DNA of 20,843 bases, taken from positions 1-20,843 of the IMG/VR virus record IMGVR_UViG_3300027832_000134. One strand, given 5' to 3'. The DNA comes from a virus. The position numbers and the translations under genes are program-made. This document shows, in pieces, positions 3,570 to 15,733 of this stretch. Numbering within the stretch: the stretch's first letter is position 1; the number at the start of each line of letters is the position of its first letter. The notes under the pieces are model-generated. The model did no database searches and was not told the origin of the DNA. It saw nothing but the letters and a program-made list of their open reading frames with translations.

Positions 3570-4902
3570 CGCAAAAGTCCCGCGCAAACTAGCCTGCTTG
3601 CTCAAACCAGCAAGGTACAAGGGTGCGTATGGTGGAAGGGGTGGGGCCAAGTCTCACTTCTTTGCCGAACAGCTAATCATCAAGTGCTACCAGAAGGAAA
3701 CTAGGGCCGTTTGTATCCGTGAAGTGCAGAACTCAATCAAAGACTCAGTTCGCCAACTCTTGATGGACAAGGTAAGTCAATTCGGCATGGGCCACCTGTT
3801 TACAGCCGTGGATAACGAGATCAGAGGCACAAACGGCAGCTTGATCATCTTCCGGGGTATGCAGAGCTTCAACGCAGCCAACATCAAATCGCTGGAAAAC
3901 TACCAAGTCGCATGGGTAGAGGAGGCCCAGACCCTTAGTCAACACAGCCTAGACCTACTACGCCCGACCATCCGGGCGCTCGACTCTGAGTTGTGGTTTA
4001 GCTGGAATCCACGGTTCAAGACCGACCCAGTGGACAAGTTCTTCAGGAAAACCCCACCACCAGATGCCGTATCAACACTAATCAACTGGCGGGATAACCC
4101 GTGGTTTCCAGATGTTCTTAGAAGTGAGATGACGCACGACTTCATCGTTGACCAGGACAAGGCAGATCATATCTGGAACGGTGCTTACGGTGGAACGCAA
4201 GGAGCAATCCTGTCCCGCTGGGTGAACAAGGCCGAGCGTGATGGACGCATCGGATCAGTCGAGTTCGACCCTAACGGCGCAGGGATAGACATAAGCTGCG
4301 ACATCGGTTTCAGGGACACGGCATCATTCTGGTACTGGCAACGGTGTTTGGGTGGGTACAGGGTTCTTAAATATGACGGTGCTTCTGGAATGGATGCGCC
4401 CGAGTGGATCGAGCGGATACAAGGCAACCTGCGGAAAATGGGCTTGAGTAAGCTACTCAATAAGGTATGGCTACCCCATGATTCAAGGGCCAAGACCTTC
4501 CAAAGCAAATATACAAGCATGGAGCAGTTCCTAACTGCCTTCGGCGCATCTCATGTCGATGTTGTCCCAATCTCCAAGAAGTCCGACCAGATCAACGCAG
4601 CCAGAGAGGTCATTGACCAGTGTGAGTTTGACCGTATCCAGTGTGAGACAGGTCTAGATGGACTACTAGCCTGGGAGTTCGAATACAGCGAGGATAACAA
4701 CGTCTACAGCCGAGAACCAAAGCATAACTGGGCAAGCCACCCAAGCGATGCGTTTGCTTACGGCTGCCAAGTAATGCAGAAGCACAAACTGCCAGTGCCG
4801 GGAATCGAGACCAAAACCCTGATCGTCGGGCCTGCGAATGAAGTGACAATGGACGATATGTGGGCTATCCACAAAACAAACCAAAGGAGTGCCAGAATAT
4901 GA
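3562..4902 (+). CDS. terL: Terminase large subunit (PBSX-like, ATPase/nuclease)
   Basis: A 446-residue packaging motor. ATG 3562 is preferred over TTG 3556 because GAGG stands at 3551-3554. The N-terminal ATPase has a Walker A-type loop GGRGGAKSH (residues 24-32), a Walker B with catalytic Glu VAWVEEAQ (116-123) and a coupling motif SWNP (147-150). The C-terminal RNase H-like nuclease shows Asp-containing strands near CDIGFRDTASFWYW (246-259), VWLPHDSRAKTF in the middle and HPSDAFAYG near the C terminus. It translocates DNA into the procapsid through the portal and cuts the concatemer. It overlaps the small subunit gene by eight bases. All key motifs are present, so the gene appears intact. 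Confidence 0.95.
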   Translation: MISAKVPRKLACLLKPARYKGAYGGRGGAKSHFFAEQLIIKCYQKETRAVCIREVQNSIKDSVRQLLMDKVSQFGMGHLFTAVDNEIRGTNGSLIIFRGMQSFNAANIKSLENYQVAWVEEAQTLSQHSLDLLRPTIRALDSELWFSWNPRFKTDPVDKFFRKTPPPDAVSTLINWRDNPWFPDVLRSEMTHDFIVDQDKADHIWNGAYGGTQGAILSRWVNKAERDGRIGSVEFDPNGAGIDISCDIGFRDTASFWYWQRCLGGYRVLKYDGASGMDAPEWIERIQGNLRKMGLSKLLNKVWLPHDSRAKTFQSKYTSMEQFLTAFGASHVDVVPISKKSDQINAAREVIDQCEFDRIQCETGLDGLLAWEFEYSEDNNVYSREPKHNWASHPSDAFAYGCQVMQKHKLPVPGIETKTLIVGPANEVTMDDMWAIHKTNQRSARI

Positions 4903-4934
4903 ACGCTGTATCTTATTGGCCTAATCATGGCTGA
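4899..4934 (+). CDS. Possible 11-residue upstream peptide coupled to the next gene
   Basis: ATG 4899 overlaps the terminase stop as ATGA and is preceded by a strong AAAGGAG (4883-4889). The peptide would read MNAVSYWPNHG and stop at TGA 4932-4934. The next gene starts at ATG 4927, inside this peptide's codons, and lacks a recognisable ribosome site of its own. The arrangement suggests that ribosomes engage at 4899 and re-initiate at 4927. It could also be a chance short frame, or the trace of a shifted original start. Confidence 0.35.
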   Translation: MNAVSYWPNHG

Positions 4935-6594
4935 TCCTAGCCAACTAGCGGCGGCGCTCCGCTACCAAGAGGATAGGATCAGTCCTACACCTCGGAATAA
5001 GCTATTGGGCATGGTAGCTGATGCTATGCAAGGTGTGGGCGATTGGGCAACATCTCCAGAACGCGGAGGGCCAAGGGCAGGTTTTAATAAAGCTATTGCT
5101 GACGTGCTGGGCCTGCCGGGTACGCAAAGAACCATCGATGCACTGTCCTATGGCCATCCGTTAGGCAAGGCAGGTTCAGGCGGTATGTGGCAACCTAAGT
5201 CAGACACGGTTGATGCTGTTTTTAATGCAATACCGTTAACTGGGCTGGCAAGCAAAGGCGCAAAGACAGTGGGCCAAACTTTAGCGCCAACAGCCAAGGA
5301 GATGGCGCGTGTAGCCATTGAGAAGCGGCTTGTCGATATTGGTGGGATACAACCCGCTACCGTCTGGCAAGGCTCGCCGCACCGCTTTGCACCTACGGCA
5401 AAGAATCCGCTAGGCGAGTTTGACGCGACGAAGATCGGCACTGGCGAGGGTGCGCAGGCTTATGGGCATGGTCATTATCTGGCTGATGCGCCTGAGGTGG
5501 CTAAGTCGTACGCTGGGCTATTTAACGGTCGCGTTACAAAAACCGTTTCATTGCCAACAGCCGACGGCGTTCGAGTTCCTGGCACATATAACAGAATGGT
5601 GGCGGCTGATGTAGCGACACAGCATAAAGGGAATGTGCAGGCGGCAATAGATGATGCGATTCGCACTAACGCTGACCCAGAATATATTGCAGCAGCTAGA
5701 AATTTGCTCGGCAAAACTGTTGACACTAGCACTATTAACCGTACCCATAAAGGCAACCTCTACAAAGTAGACCTACCAGACGAACACATAGCCCGGATGT
5801 TGGATTACGACAATGCAGTGCCGGAAGCAGTACGCCAAAAAGTCAGTCAGGCGGCAATGCAAAAATTTGGCTCAGGCTCAACTGGTACAAGTGGCGAACA
5901 GCTATACAACGAAGTAGTTAAGGAATTTCAGCGTGCCGGAAGTAAAAACGCCACGGCTGAAGCCACTGATTTTTTAAGGCAGCAAGGCATACCCGGCATA
6001 CGCTACCTAGACGGCGGCTCACGCGCTGGTGGGGCAGGAACAAGCAATTACGTTGTATTCCCCGGTAACGAGGGGATGCTGAAAATCCTTGAGCGCAATG
6101 GGCAGACAGCAGCCAAGCCTAACAACCTAGTAGAGGCCCTGAAATATCAGGAGGGCCAAGCTAAAACTCTTGGTCAGTACGGTGGTTCCGCTCCCAGTTC
6201 AGCACAAAAACCAGCATTGAGCAAAACAGCAGACTTCGGTGGTGACAAAACATATCCCATTAACACAACGGGTGATGTAGTTGTAGGCGACCAAATTTCA
6301 TTTCAACGCGCAACCTTCTCAGGAAGTTTTAGAAATGCAAAGTTTGAAGGGTTTGAGCGTGTTGATGCAAAAATAGTAAAAGACAGCTACGGAAAAGACA
6401 AGCAGCAACATACTTTTACTTTGGAATTACCGGATGGAACGACAACCAAAATAAAAGGACGTAACATTTACAAAGAAGGTACTTGGAGAAAGCCGTGGGA
6501 AGATGAGTCGTTACGCAAAGCCGCCACAGATGAAAAGCATACGCGAGGCGACATTGCTAGAACGGCAAGAGATGAAAGAAAAATGGACAAATGA
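4927..6594 (+). CDS. Large phage protein with ADP-ribosyltransferase-like (polyvalent-type) domain
   Basis: This 555-residue protein starts at ATG 4927; no ribosome site is visible and it may be coupled to the 4899 peptide. Residues 1-140 are linker-like. Residues 146-378 carry a domain seen in many phage proteins: VWQGSPHRF (146-154), KIGTGEGAQAYGHGHYLAD (169-187), NLYKVDLPD, SGEQLY (322-327) and YLDGGSRAGGAGTSNYVVF (360-378). I associate this pattern with the ART-like domain of phage polyvalent proteins, which would transfer ADP-ribose from NAD+ to a target. Here the usual HG after W is QG. A separate beta-rich C-terminal domain (about 440-520) includes VVVGDQISF, FSGSFRNAKFEGFE and IKGRNIY. 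Location between terminase and portal suggests a packaged protein injected into the host. Activity is inferred; family is moderately sure. Confidence 0.7.
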   Translation: MADPSQLAAALRYQEDRISPTPRNKLLGMVADAMQGVGDWATSPERGGPRAGFNKAIADVLGLPGTQRTIDALSYGHPLGKAGSGGMWQPKSDTVDAVFNAIPLTGLASKGAKTVGQTLAPTAKEMARVAIEKRLVDIGGIQPATVWQGSPHRFAPTAKNPLGEFDATKIGTGEGAQAYGHGHYLADAPEVAKSYAGLFNGRVTKTVSLPTADGVRVPGTYNRMVAADVATQHKGNVQAAIDDAIRTNADPEYIAAARNLLGKTVDTSTINRTHKGNLYKVDLPDEHIARMLDYDNAVPEAVRQKVSQAAMQKFGSGSTGTSGEQLYNEVVKEFQRAGSKNATAEATDFLRQQGIPGIRYLDGGSRAGGAGTSNYVVFPGNEGMLKILERNGQTAAKPNNLVEALKYQEGQAKTLGQYGGSAPSSAQKPALSKTADFGGDKTYPINTTGDVVVGDQISFQRATFSGSFRNAKFEGFERVDAKIVKDSYGKDKQQHTFTLELPDGTTTKIKGRNIYKEGTWRKPWEDESLRKAATDEKHTRGDIARTARDERKMDK

Positions 6595-10116: not shown

Positions 10117-10136
10117 TCTGATTAGGAGTAATTATT

Positions 10137-10217
10137 ATGGCTTTTGCCAATAGCTCAATCAGCGACATCATTGCGACCAACATTCAAAGTCGAACTGGTG
10201 AACTAGCTGACAACGTT
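10137..10217 (+). CDS. Major capsid protein, exon 1
   Basis: Twenty-seven codons from ATG 10137, with AGGAG at 10124-10128. The peptide MAFANSSISDIIATNIQSRT continues GELADNV and matches the N terminus of the coat family whose next residues are T-x-NNALLRRLKE. Those residues are found only after 10914. The frame meets TGA at 10218, the first codon of the group I intron, so translation of unspliced RNA yields only this 27-residue peptide. The exon ends in AACGTT, which pairs with GACGTT at 10228-10233 to give the P1 helix with its U.G pair at the splice site. Confidence 0.88.
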
Positions 10218-10913
10218 TGACAAAATAGACGTTAGAAAACTCCGTGAATTCGGTGAAAAGCTGAGATGCCAACACCGAGCCAAGCGGCGCAGTTAAAAGG
10301 GCGCTGAAGGTGTAACGACTAGGGTACTGCGGAAGCAAAGCCCCACGAGCGCGGAGCGTAAGTATTAACCACAGAGGGGAATCCCAAATGGTAACAGTGT
10401 ACGGATTAGAGGATGCAAGTACCGGCGGGGCGTATGTAGGTTGTACGTCTGGCAAAATAGGTAAGAGGATGCGGGAACACCGCAGCTTACTCAAGGCGGG
10501 AAAACATAGCTCTAGAAGGTTGCAGGAAGCGTGGAACGATCACGCTGGCGCGTTTCAGATGAAAGTCTTAGAGACAATGCCAGCCGATGTGTCAGTGATC
10601 GAGAAACGTGAGCGCGAGTTGTCTTGGATGAAGCATTACAGGTTACAGGGTTTGTTGTTGAACGAGAATGAATATTCGTTCCGACCACCACCGTATGCTC
10701 CAGCAATGGCAGTGGCGGCAAGAGTAGCAAGAGGCTACCGGCCCAGCGCAGAAAGCAACATGAAACGTAGACTGGCGCAGCTTGGTAAGCCGAAAGGTCA
10801 TGGCGCTAAAATAAGTGCCACTAAGCGTGCGAAAAACTTGCGATGAGATAGTCTGCTCTGCACATAAGAAGAATGTGCAGGTTTCGGATAAAGAGCCGAA
10901 ACGTAACACTAGG
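10218..10913 (+). mobile_element. Group I self-splicing intron in the major capsid gene
   Basis: A 696-nt intron. P1 forms between exon AACGTT (10212-10217) and GACGTT (10228-10233), with U10217.G10228 marking the 5' splice site. GACTA (10317-10321) after GTGTAAC pairs with TAGTC (10849-10853) in AGATAGTC, the P7 guanosine-binding core. P9-type hairpins follow: CTGCACAT (10858-10865) with ATGTGCAG (10873-10880), and GTTTCGG (10881-10887) with CCGAAAC (10896-10902). The intron ends in G10913. Removing it joins Val27 to Thr in frame and restores the coat motif ADNVT-NNNALLRRL. A GIY-YIG endonuclease ORF fills the loop between the two P7 strands. Splicing is inferred from structure, not observed. 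Confidence 0.9.
10388..10846 (+). CDS. GIY-YIG homing endonuclease encoded in the intron
   Basis: This 152-residue protein starts at ATG 10388, preceded by AGAGGGGA. The GIY-YIG nuclease domain has VYG (residues 4-6) and AYVG (15-18), the catalytic Arg region KRMREH (26-31), a His-rich helix and the metal-binding Glu in VIEKRERELSWMKHY (70-84), followed by LLNEN. The C-terminal part (about 115-145; ESNMKRRLAQLGKPKGHGAK) resembles a NUMOD3-type DNA-binding module. It should cut intron-less alleles of the capsid gene near the insertion site and so spread the intron. The stop codon ends two bases before the P7 3' strand, so the ORF is fitted tightly into the ribozyme. The first motif is VYG rather than GIY, as some members have. 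Confidence 0.9.
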   Translation: MVTVYGLEDASTGGAYVGCTSGKIGKRMREHRSLLKAGKHSSRRLQEAWNDHAGAFQMKVLETMPADVSVIEKRERELSWMKHYRLQGLLLNENEYSFRPPPYAPAMAVAARVARGYRPSAESNMKRRLAQLGKPKGHGAKISATKRAKNLR

Positions 10914-11834
10914 ACAAACAACAATGCCCTGTTGCGCCGCCTGAAAGAGCGCGGAAACGTCAAGACGTTCTCCGGTGGTAATGTGATCTTGCAAGAGATT
11001 ATGTACACCGACAGTTCCACGAACAACACCAACAGCTATTCTGGCTATGAAGTGTTGAACGTGTCACAGAACAGCCCGATCAGCTCGGCTCAGTTCTCGA
11101 TCACTCAGTACGCCGCTGCGGTTTCTATTTCTGGTTTGGAGATGATCCAAAACTCAGGCAAAGAAGCCATCATCGATCTATTGGATGGCCGGATGAACGT
11201 AGCTGAAGCGCAACTGGCTAACCGACTGGGTAGTGACATTTACCTCGACGGTACTGGTAACTCAGGAAAGAACATCACCGGATTGGGTGCTGCTGTGCCT
11301 GATGCTCCTTCAACCGGAACCTATGGCGGTATCAACCGGGCAACATTCTCGTTTTGGCGTTCGGTGAAGTACGCAGGCTCTGCTGATGGTGGCGCAGCGG
11401 TTTCTGCAACCAACATCCAAAGTTACATGGACGCACTCGCGGTTCAGTTGATTCGCGGTACGGACAAGCCTGATCTGATCGTTGCAGATGCCAACTACTA
11501 CAAGTTGTATCTCCAATCGCTCCAGGCTATCCAGCGTATCTCGGACGGTGGCTCTAGCACTGCTGGCGCTGGCTTTGCTTCGCTAAAATACTATGGTGCA
11601 GGTATGTCCTCGGACGTAGTTCTGGACGGTGGTGTTGGCGGTGCAGCTACTGCGGATCACATGTGGTTTCTGAACACGAAATACATCATGTTCCGTCCCC
11701 ACGTTGATCGTAACTTCGTTCCCATTGGTGGCGAGCGCCAGGCAGTCAATCAAGACGCTGTTGTGAAGCTCATCGGCTGGGCCGGTAATTTGACCAGTAG
11801 CGGCCCGCAATTCAGCGGCGTGCTGATAGCCTGA
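10914..11834 (+). CDS. Major capsid protein, exon 2
   Basis: This exon gives 306 residues; joined with exon 1 (10137-10217) the product is 333 residues. The frame extends upstream into the intron to a possible ATT/ATG-type start at 10815, but those codons are intron sequence and should not be coat protein. The exon begins TNNNALLRRLKERGNVKTFSGG, continues YSGYEVLNVSQNSPISSAQF, AAAVSISGLEMIQNSGKEAIIDLLDGR and ends with VDRNFVPIGGERQAVNQDAVVKLIGWAGNLT. This is the coat family common to short-tailed phages with this scaffold and portal. It forms the icosahedral shell with an HK97-like fold expected. It stands after scaffold and before a small decoration-like gene. The assignment is firm. Confidence 0.92.
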   Translation, partial: TNNNALLRRLKERGNVKTFSGGNVILQEIMYTDSSTNNTNSYSGYEVLNVSQNSPISSAQFSITQYAAAVSISGLEMIQNSGKEAIIDLLDGRMNVAEAQLANRLGSDIYLDGTGNSGKNITGLGAAVPDAPSTGTYGGINRATFSFWRSVKYAGSADGGAAVSATNIQSYMDALAVQLIRGTDKPDLIVADANYYKLYLQSLQAIQRISDGGSSTAGAGFASLKYYGAGMSSDVVLDGGVGGAATADHMWFLNTKYIMFRPHVDRNFVPIGGERQAVNQDAVVKLIGWAGNLTSSGPQFSGVLIA

Positions 11835-13785: not shown

Positions 13786-14025
13786 ATGAGTATTCGTTCA
13801 ATGTTGAGAAATACCAGCGGCCGTGCAGCAGGCGTTGCTTCGCTCCCTGCTCCTGTTGGGGGATGGAATGCACGCGATTCATTGGCGAACATGGAATCGA
13901 CTGATGCGGTGATACTTGACAACCTGTTCCCAACGGTGTCATCGGTCAACCTTCGTGGTGGATATACACCAGTGGGTCAACTACTGCGCTTTTCGCTATT
14001 GCAGGGACTTCAATTTATGACGTAA
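13786..14025 (+). CDS. Tail protein, N-terminal fragment (frame broken)
   Basis: This 79-codon frame starts at ATG 13786, with AAAGGG at 13772-13777. It begins MSIRSMLRNTSGRAAG, then PAPVGGWNARDSLANMESTDAVILDNLFPT and VNLRGGYT. The GGWNARD...M-x-DAV-x-L-DN-x-FP pattern marks a tail tube/stabilisation protein of short-tailed phages that is normally one long protein. Homology-like sequence ends around 13976; the remaining residues to TAA 14023-14025 are out of frame. The downstream frame, open from 13920, carries the continuation (TTALFAIAGTSIYDVT from 13980). About 15-20 residues that I expect between the two parts are missing, so a deletion of non-multiple-of-three length is likely. Confidence 0.7.
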   Translation: MSIRSMLRNTSGRAAGVASLPAPVGGWNARDSLANMESTDAVILDNLFPTVSSVNLRGGYTPVGQLLRFSLLQGLQFMT

Positions 14026-14054: not shown

Positions 14055-15299
14055 GTGACTGGGCTAACGAACGCTCGGTGGGAGTACATCAATGTCACCA
14101 CAACTGGGGGTAGTTATCTCTACGCTGTAAACGGAGTGGATGCTCCCAGACTGTACGATGGCTCGACTTGGGTAACTATCACCGCAGTTTCAACGCCTGC
14201 GATTACCGGGGTAACAACAACTACCCTAGACAACATCACGCTGTTCAAGAATCGTGTCTGGTTCATTGAAAAGGATACCCTGAAGGCGTGGTATCTACCC
14301 ACGAGTGCAGTCGGTGGAGCTGCTGCAACGCTGGATTTAAGTTCAATTGCCAAGATGGGTGGTTCGCTCGTTTCTGTCGCAGCGTGGACGATTGACGCAG
14401 GGTATGGAGTAGATGACAACCTAGTGTTTGTCACCAGCGAGGGTGAAATCATCGTCTACCGTGGGTCTGATCCAGCAAGTGCTGCAACGTGGGCATTGAC
14501 GGGTGTTTGGAATTTGGGCGCTCCGGTCAGCAAAAGGTGTCTCCTAAAGTACGGCGGTGATCTTTTAATACTGTCCTTGGATGGGTTGTTGCCATTAGCC
14601 TCTGCATTACAAAGCTCACGCATCGACCCAAGGGTTGCGCTGAGTGGCAAAATAGAAGGCGCTATCAATGCTGCGACAACAACTTACCAAAACACCTTTG
14701 GTTGGACGATTCTTTATTTCGCCAAAAGGAATGCGCTTTGGATAAATGTGCCGGTGTCTGCTGGAAAGCAAGAACAGTTCGTTATGAACACAATTACCAA
14801 GGCGTGGTGTCGGTTCACCGGATGGCCCGCTAACTGTTGGTCGTTGTTTAACGACGATCCGTATTTTGGTGGGAACGGCTTTGTCGGTGTGGCATGGGGC
14901 AGTGGGTATGTTGATGACACCAGCAATATCGCAACGTCTGCCTTGCAAGCGTTTAACTATTACGAATCGCGTGGAGTAAAAAAATACTTTACCCGCGCAA
15001 GGCCAAGTATTTTCACGGATGGTCTGCCTGGTATTGCTCTCGGCATGAACATTGATTTTGACTTGGTTGGCACAACATCAGAATTGTCGTTTTCGCCCAC
15101 ATTGCAATATGGCTCTTGGGATTCAGCCTTGTGGGATGTGGGATCATGGGGTTCTGGTCTAACGATAACGAACAATTGGCAAGGGATTACAGGCATAGGT
15201 TACTGTGGTGGCTTGCAGTTCAAAAGTGAAAGTCAAGGAATACAACTTGAGTGGGCGGCTACCGATGTGGTCTACCAAAGCGGATGGCCGGGTATCTGA
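14055..15299 (+). CDS. Tail protein, C-terminal fragment (continues the 13786 gene in another frame)
   Basis: The frame is open from 13920. The first in-frame conventional start is GTG 14055, with no good ribosome site, yet family-like sequence begins already at about 13977. It reads VVTGLTNARWEYINVTTTGGSYLYAVNGVDAPRLYDGSTW, then a beta-propeller-like series (FKNRVWFIEKDTLKAWYLP, DNLVFVTSEGEIIVYRGSDP, GDLLILSLDGLLPLA), and ends QSGWPGI. Together with the 13786 fragment this would be a protein of about 500 residues near the adaptor, probably part of the tail hub or tube. Whether the split is real, a sequencing fault or a -1 shift site cannot be told; no clean slippery heptamer is visible. Confidence 0.7.
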   Translation: MTGLTNARWEYINVTTTGGSYLYAVNGVDAPRLYDGSTWVTITAVSTPAITGVTTTTLDNITLFKNRVWFIEKDTLKAWYLPTSAVGGAAATLDLSSIAKMGGSLVSVAAWTIDAGYGVDDNLVFVTSEGEIIVYRGSDPASAATWALTGVWNLGAPVSKRCLLKYGGDLLILSLDGLLPLASALQSSRIDPRVALSGKIEGAINAATTTYQNTFGWTILYFAKRNALWINVPVSAGKQEQFVMNTITKAWCRFTGWPANCWSLFNDDPYFGGNGFVGVAWGSGYVDDTSNIATSALQAFNYYESRGVKKYFTRARPSIFTDGLPGIALGMNIDFDLVGTTSELSFSPTLQYGSWDSALWDVGSWGSGLTITNNWQGITGIGYCGGLQFKSESQGIQLEWAATDVVYQSGWPGI

Positions 15300-15733
15300 T
15301 TGTCAATGGCCCAGAAGTGGGCAGGTGGGTTGCAAAACGCATCCAAGGTGGCTTTTGCGAGGATAGAACAGTAGCCATAGGATTGAAAAAAGACGACGAC
15401 CTGATTGCAGGCGTGATTTATGAGAATTGGAATCATCAAAGTATTTGGTGTCACATTGCGATTGATGGGAAAATAACACCAAGTTACCTAGCAGCGATAT
15501 TTGACTACCCGTTCAACATCGCTCAAGTTGAAAAGATTATTGTCCCAGTAGGAAGTGACAATGAGGAAAGCATACGTTTAGTCAAGAAAATGGGGTTTAC
15601 CGAGGAAGGCCGAATCAAAGAGGGGCGGCTTGATGGAGACATTGTTTTTTTGACGTTGAACAGAAAAGACTGTAAGTATTTAGGAGAAAGATATTATGGG
15701 AAAATCAAGTCCAGCGCCACCACCAGCGCCTGA
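15284..15733 (+). CDS. GNAT-family acetyltransferase
   Basis: This 149-residue protein starts at ATG 15284; GTG 15251 in frame is deeper inside the tail gene and less likely. It begins MAGYLIVNGPEVGRWVAKRI and continues LIAGVIYENWNHQSIWCHIAI, FDYPFNIAQVEKIIVPVGSDNEESIRLVKKMGFTEEGRIKEGRLDGD. The N-x-[ES]-[SA]-x-R/K-x2-x-K-x-GF-x-EEG segment is the classic GNAT acetyl-CoA-binding C-terminal half. It would transfer an acetyl group from acetyl-CoA to an unknown amine, perhaps on a virion or host protein. Such GNATs occur among tail genes of short-tailed phages. It overlaps the tail gene by 16 bp and the next gene by 38 bp. The family is firm; the substrate is unknown. Confidence 0.87.
   Translation: MAGYLIVNGPEVGRWVAKRIQGGFCEDRTVAIGLKKDDDLIAGVIYENWNHQSIWCHIAIDGKITPSYLAAIFDYPFNIAQVEKIIVPVGSDNEESIRLVKKMGFTEEGRIKEGRLDGDIVFLTLNRKDCKYLGERYYGKIKSSATTSA

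Follow-up and report, generated by a model that had tools for sequence, protein, structure and literature searches.

The window analysed here, the whole stretch of 20,843 nucleotides of the IMG/VR virus record IMGVR_UViG_3300027832_000134, carries on its plus strand a gene in two pieces, separated by an insert of 696 nt at positions 10218–10913 that is almost certainly a mobile group I intron, putatively of IA2-like type, located at a conserved Asp-Asn-Val triplet in the major capsid gene of an Mx8-type tailed phage. Exon 1 (10137–10217; 27 codons, MAFANSSISDIIATNIQSRTGELADNV), whose Shine-Dalgarno motif AGGAG (10124–10128) lies 8 nt upstream of the ATG at 10137, matches the N termini of uninterrupted homologues, and exon 2 (10914–11834) provides a further 306 codons plus the stop. 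The insert is therefore found between codons 27 and 28, where a previous sequence-only reading of this DNA had located the split. Exon 2 matches PHROG 9953 (phrog_9953, major head protein; E=5.9e-99), and tblastn retrieves the capsid genes of Mx8 (50% identity), Mx9, Stenotrophomonas phage BUCT555, Bradyrhizobium and others at 30–52% identity. An AlphaFold model of an uninterrupted homologue (L002; relatives are designated by L numbers), based on an alignment of 32 sequences and with a modest mean pLDDT of 67, shows the HK97 fold according to Foldseek, with phage capsids including that of HK97 as matches (best E=2.7e-9). As judged from this homology and from the predicted fold, the host gene is an Mx8-type, HK97-fold major capsid gene. 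In the model, codon 27 marks the end of a poorly ordered N-terminal arm (residues 1–26 with pLDDT <50), and the family columns D25, N26 and A32 around the junction are invariant.

Joining position 10217 to 10914 yields ...ELADNV-TNNNALL... in frame, in agreement with the claim that excision reconstitutes a coat motif, and the same arrangement is present in 76 uninterrupted close homologues (49 distinct junctions), which read across the site without a gap. In every relative with a resolved 3' site, excision after a terminal G restores the motif DNV-[TSR]x[NH]; as the search for the 3' end demanded a G before the exon, it is the restoration of the frame that constitutes the test, and a few divergent loci have no resolved 3' end. 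The splice sites had been said to be placeable to the base, which holds only in part: the alternative cut at 10217–10912, also with a terminal G, equally restores the valine (as GTG instead of GTT), leaving a sliding ambiguity of one base, and 10218–10913 is chosen solely because of the U.G rule at P1. Automatic placement of this shared position (site 1) slid by one base wherever both placements yield valine. In the frame of exon 1, the first codon of the intron is a stop (TGA), and an in-frame stop opens all 49 distinct site-1 introns, being TAA in 44 and TGA in five. Because the TGA at 10218 is in frame with exon 1, all capsid production would require splicing; stops of this kind have been read in a review as stalling ribosomes ahead of the ribozyme (PMC3984707).

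The RNA core was compared in a structural alignment of 21 cores, clustered at 97.5% and with the endonuclease gene removed. P1 (10212–10233) is formed by the exon bases AACGTT (10212–10217) and the internal guide sequence GACGTT (10228–10233), six base pairs closed by U10217.G10228, and P7, the guanosine-binding helix (10317–10853), by GACTA (10317–10321) and TAGTC (10849–10853). Both are invariant in the 21 cores and, for this reason, contribute no covariation. P3 (10240–10356; 10240–10246 with 10350–10356) is paired in 147 of 147 cells and shows two-sided changes at four pairs, a result reached by no shuffle, with CTCC/GGAG, CTTC/GAAG and TCGG/CCGA as plain compensatory versions. Covariation extends to P4 (10250–10255 with 10273–10278; 120/126 cells paired), to P6a (10285–10290 with 10301–10306; 125/126, with numerous two-sided changes), to P8 (10358–10841; 10358–10363 with 10836–10841; 116/120, all six pairs covarying), whose loop houses the endonuclease gene, and to P9 (10858–10880), in which CTGCACAT (10858–10865) faces ATGTGCAG (10873–10880) and 147 of 164 cells are paired. 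For most variable pairs of P3, P4, P6a, P8 and P9 no shuffle attains the observed pairing, although these numbers are descriptive, since the shuffles ignore relatedness. P5 (10260–10261 with 10268–10269) and P6 (10279–10281 with 10309–10311) complete the core alignment, and no P10 pairing is evident in the intron. Two further stems were examined one sequence at a time, as MAFFT misaligns both: a P7.1-like stem (10322–10343) between the 5' strand of P7 and the 3' strand of P3, an IA-type feature of 3–6 bp, and the P9.1 hairpin (10881–10902; GTTTCGG at 10881–10887 with CCGAAAC at 10896–10902), of 6–7 bp, each of them found in 21/21 cores. On inspection, P1, P7, P9, P9.1 and the terminal G10913 all lie at the coordinates that the sequence-only reading had assigned to them. 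Of the IA2 features considered, namely P7.1/P7.2 between P7 and P3' and P9.1, a P7.1-like stem and P9.1 are seen; together with the frequency of IA2 among viral group I introns, of which it makes up more than half (PMC11835236), they are the basis for a putative IA2-like assignment.

The identification as a group I intron is confirmed above all by comparison, through covariation and the intronless homologues, whereas a match to Rfam below the gathering cutoff is the weakest part of the evidence. In a permissive search, RF00028 (Intron_gpI) matched positions 10237–10357 with 26 bits (E=2.3e-4) against a gathering score of 50 bits, which is a detection threshold and not a defining property of group I introns; at that threshold, Rfam gave no match in the window. 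A covariance hit had been anticipated, and it is present, albeit with a score under the cutoff because the model is interrupted by the gene of 459 nt inserted in P8. Gene-less introns of relatives (L087, L137, L192 and L209) score 50–64 bits against the same model.

The gene in P8 (10388–10846, plus strand) encodes a protein of 152 aa related to I-TevI, whose proposed identity as a GIY-YIG homing endonuclease is substantiated by a match to PF01541 (25.5 bits, cutoff 22.6), by matches to the I-TevI structures 1MK0/1LN0 (E=9e-12) and by intact catalytic residues, with Y5, Y16, G18, R27, H31, H40, E77 and N92 kept in all 38 distinct homologues. The median dN/dS is 0.077 (93 pairs), and the endonuclease thus evolves under purifying selection. 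At its end, the coding sequence overlaps with the P8 3' strand. Within the C-terminal part, KRRLAQLGKPKGHGAKISATK (10760–10843) is almost invariant among homologues of 46–52% overall identity and, to judge from this conservation, is likely a DNA-contact motif. Immediately upstream of the endonuclease ATG, GAGGGGAAUCCC forms a 3-bp hairpin across the Shine-Dalgarno sequence, GGG(GAAU)CCC (10376–10385), which is paired in 60 of 60 cells, with A-U in place of G-C as the third pair in four cores and, by eye, the form UGG/CCA in L137/L138; by covering the ribosome-binding site, it probably lowers translation of the enzyme. By analogy with the behaviour of such enzymes, the predicted cleavage target is the exon junction region.

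The anatomy, the covariation, the contrast with empty sites, the purifying selection on the enzyme and the repeated gain or loss are directly observed; self-splicing, cleavage, homing and the roles of stop and hairpin we infer as follows. The exon end AACGUU would pair in the RNA with the internal guide GACGUU (P1, with U.G), the guanosine held in P7 would attack after U10217, and the freed exon would in turn attack after G10913, thereby joining the exons in frame, while the stop at the first intron codon would keep ribosomes out of the ribozyme core. During co-infection, the GIY-YIG enzyme expressed from the P8 loop would cut intronless capsid genes at DNV and repair of the cut allele would copy the intron in, with enzyme output probably held low by the hairpin.

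The empty site is best illustrated by close alleles that differ in the presence of the intron at one exact position, such as L196 (intron) and L059/L051 (intronless). Over the 60 bases that lead up to the site, L196 and L059 differ only once, at base -1, which is T in the former and A in the latter. This base is T in all intron alleles, as P1 requires of the U at -1, and in only 4/76 close intronless genes and 25/205 intronless genes family-wide. A co-conversion tract was sought, but the data do not support one as a general feature: strong differences across the first 240 bases of exon 2 and upstream of the site are seen between L115 and L002, and not within the pairs L196/L059 and L202/L063.

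A pattern built on P1 and P3, which includes exon bases and is hence blind to copies at other sites, was found in 72 viral stretches and three stretches of metagenome-assembled genomes (MAGs), always immediately behind the xDNV of a capsid gene of this kind. Introns occupy the same insertion site even in capsid genes of as little as about 33% identity (L126, L129, L130, L133 and L135), and in L137/L138 the intron lies one codon downstream of it. In a phylogeny built from the distal region of exon 2 (102 alleles, of which 31 have the intron), the distribution of the intron requires 11 changes of state, nine or more of them on supported branches, as compared with about 27 for shuffled labels. 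Gain and loss are not distinguishable on this tree, which establishes repeated gain or loss of the intron across the capsid phylogeny; ordinary mosaicism around the gene, of the kind seen in L115/L002, could account for part of the scattered distribution. Introns lacking the endonuclease gene (L163, 295 nt; L203, 251 nt) are as expected of a cycle of gain and loss. The clustering of intron alleles on the tree and the existence of gene-less introns would also suit an intron that splices but no longer moves, inherited with the capsid gene and carrying its endonuclease as a passive relic. This seems improbable in view of the constraint on the enzyme (median dN/dS 0.077, catalytic residues intact in 38/38) and of the state changes on supported branches, including sister alleles such as L196/L059. 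BLAST against 50,697 annotated phage records revealed none with an intron of this lineage or its enzyme in a capsid gene. The intron core gave only weak matches in other phages (best E=1e-3), several of them in polymerase or terminase genes, and the endonuclease gave a weak match to phage TuIa and no other.

Since each particle is built from hundreds of copies of the capsid protein, a mobile intron in its gene would put the whole yield under the efficiency of the ribozyme. It could be asked if the intron has been co-opted as a regulator, with timed or gated splicing delaying capsid protein to the late phase, as the extreme 5' position, the immediate stop codon kept in 49/49 introns and the conserved hairpin over the endonuclease ribosome-binding site might suggest. 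We give this a small chance, because the intron is dispensable, being missing from many close relatives whose capsid genes are nearly identical, and because the same features fit a purely selfish element. The cost of carrying the mobile intron is directly measurable in natural near-isogenic pairs, in which 59 of 60 exon bases next to the site are identical. The capsid gene as a target also fits a finding in jumbo phage PhiPA3, in which an intron endonuclease is reported to help the phage to harm a co-infecting relative (PMC11620839).

The absence of the lineage from annotated isolates implies that gene callers and capsid-based environmental surveys will split or mis-start such genes. The prediction that the coat would be annotated with an intron-derived N terminus is right in kind, as the mechanical open reading frame at 10815–11834 puts 33 codons of intron sequence in front of exon 2. 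That this frame is real, the capsid gene being broken or alternatively started and its coat protein made from a start inside an unspliced insert, is hardly conceivable: although the frame is open in the window and in several relatives, it stays open for anything from 1 to 252 codons into the intron among relatives (1–8 codons in 13/49 distinct introns), a variation in length that marks the opening as incidental, no homologue has an N terminus resembling the codons of 10815–10913 (close intronless ones start with MAFANSS...), and the RNA core covaries.

In about a dozen relatives' contigs, the capsid gene is interrupted two or three times, at six or more sites. The additional sites were placed to the base by a U before the intron, a G at its end and restoration of the frame, except for the second introns of L131 and L192, whose position is approximate. 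One such intron lies in codon 71 (phase 1) in L100, L109, L137, L209, L215 and L226, with the same gap in L112; others are found at codon 82 (L087), at codons 108–109 (L137 and L226, also L192), at codon 150 (L110) and at codon 309 (L109 and L113), the last with a 7-bp P1 and a P7 motif on inspection. Rfam supports the extra introns of L087, L100, L109 (codon 71), L137, L192, L209, L215 and L226, and weakly that of L110. L109 and L137 have three capsid-gene introns each, the second and third being located at 3657–3907 and about 4660–4910 in L109 and at 3683–3933 and 4076–4294 in L137. Enzyme types in the relatives were called by motif only: GIY-YIG at codon 27, a LAGLIDADG-like frame in the second capsid intron of L192 (6100–7120) and an HNH-like frame in a capsid intron of L226 (600–3000). 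A broader proposal would have the Mx8-type capsid gene serve as a recurrent platform, with at least six sites (codons about 27, 71, 82, 108, 150 and 309, mostly at highly conserved residues), up to three introns per gene and GIY-YIG, LAGLIDADG-like and HNH-like enzymes, and would have stacked splicing limit or time capsid output. Taken as a whole this is rather unlikely, if less so than the relic or the regulator; were it true, intron load would be a direct handle on phage fitness.

Among known systems, the td intron of phage T4 interrupts a metabolic gene, has its open reading frame in the P6 region and encodes I-TevI behind a structured ribosome-binding site. The present intron resembles it in its putative IA2-type core, in an enzyme that is related to I-TevI and shares its catalytic residues, and in the structure at the ribosome-binding site of the enzyme gene, but differs in the location of the frame in P8, in its coat-protein host gene and in the shorter enzyme (152 aa). 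The closest precedent in a capsid gene is mycobacteriophage LittleE, where splicing was demonstrated by RT-PCR and N-terminal sequencing (PMC3706429). Like the case described here, LittleE has an endonuclease-frame intron in a phage major capsid gene, a U before it, a terminal G and intronless homologues; unlike it, the LittleE intron is a single one of 819–820 nt whose putative LAGLIDADG frame runs along the other strand, in a different capsid family and at a different insertion site. The lactococcal phage Tuc2009 is cited as a further case in the same paper (PMC3706429). The major capsid gene of Faustovirus E12 also contains several group I introns, two of which include a GIY-YIG gene, although this giant virus infects amoebae and its capsid gene has spliceosome-like introns as well (PMC6247863). 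Several group I introns per phage gene, with splicing shown on RNA, are likewise known from Bastillevirinae and Jug phages, mostly in DNA polymerase, nrd and terL genes (PMC11878797, PMC12363816), and searches of the papers on GISSD2, on Bastillevirinae and on bacterial group I introns turned up no mention of capsid genes. Capsid introns as such are thus already known from LittleE, Tuc2009 and Faustovirus; new are the spread of one site over a large group of uncultivated phages and the stacking of introns.

The three MAG matches identify no host. L213 and L214 share their intron junction sequence despite being binned in a Caulobacterales and a betaproteobacterial MAG, respectively, that is, in different classes, which makes bin-based host assignment unreliable here. 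L215, on a contig of a Sulfuricaulis MAG, has a two-intron capsid gene, and its capsid locus is a possible prophage. Elsewhere in the window, a 555-aa protein is encoded between terminase and portal (4927–6594), with a match to DUF7699 and a weak one to an endolysin PHROG. Inside the structural module, an open reading frame at 15251–15733 resembles, by eye, a GNAT acetyltransferase. Finally, a tail-region gene (13786–14025 and 14055–15299) changes frame near 13970–14025 and is a single frame in at least ten relatives, so that the change may be an indel introduced during sequencing or assembly, or else a genuine mutation.
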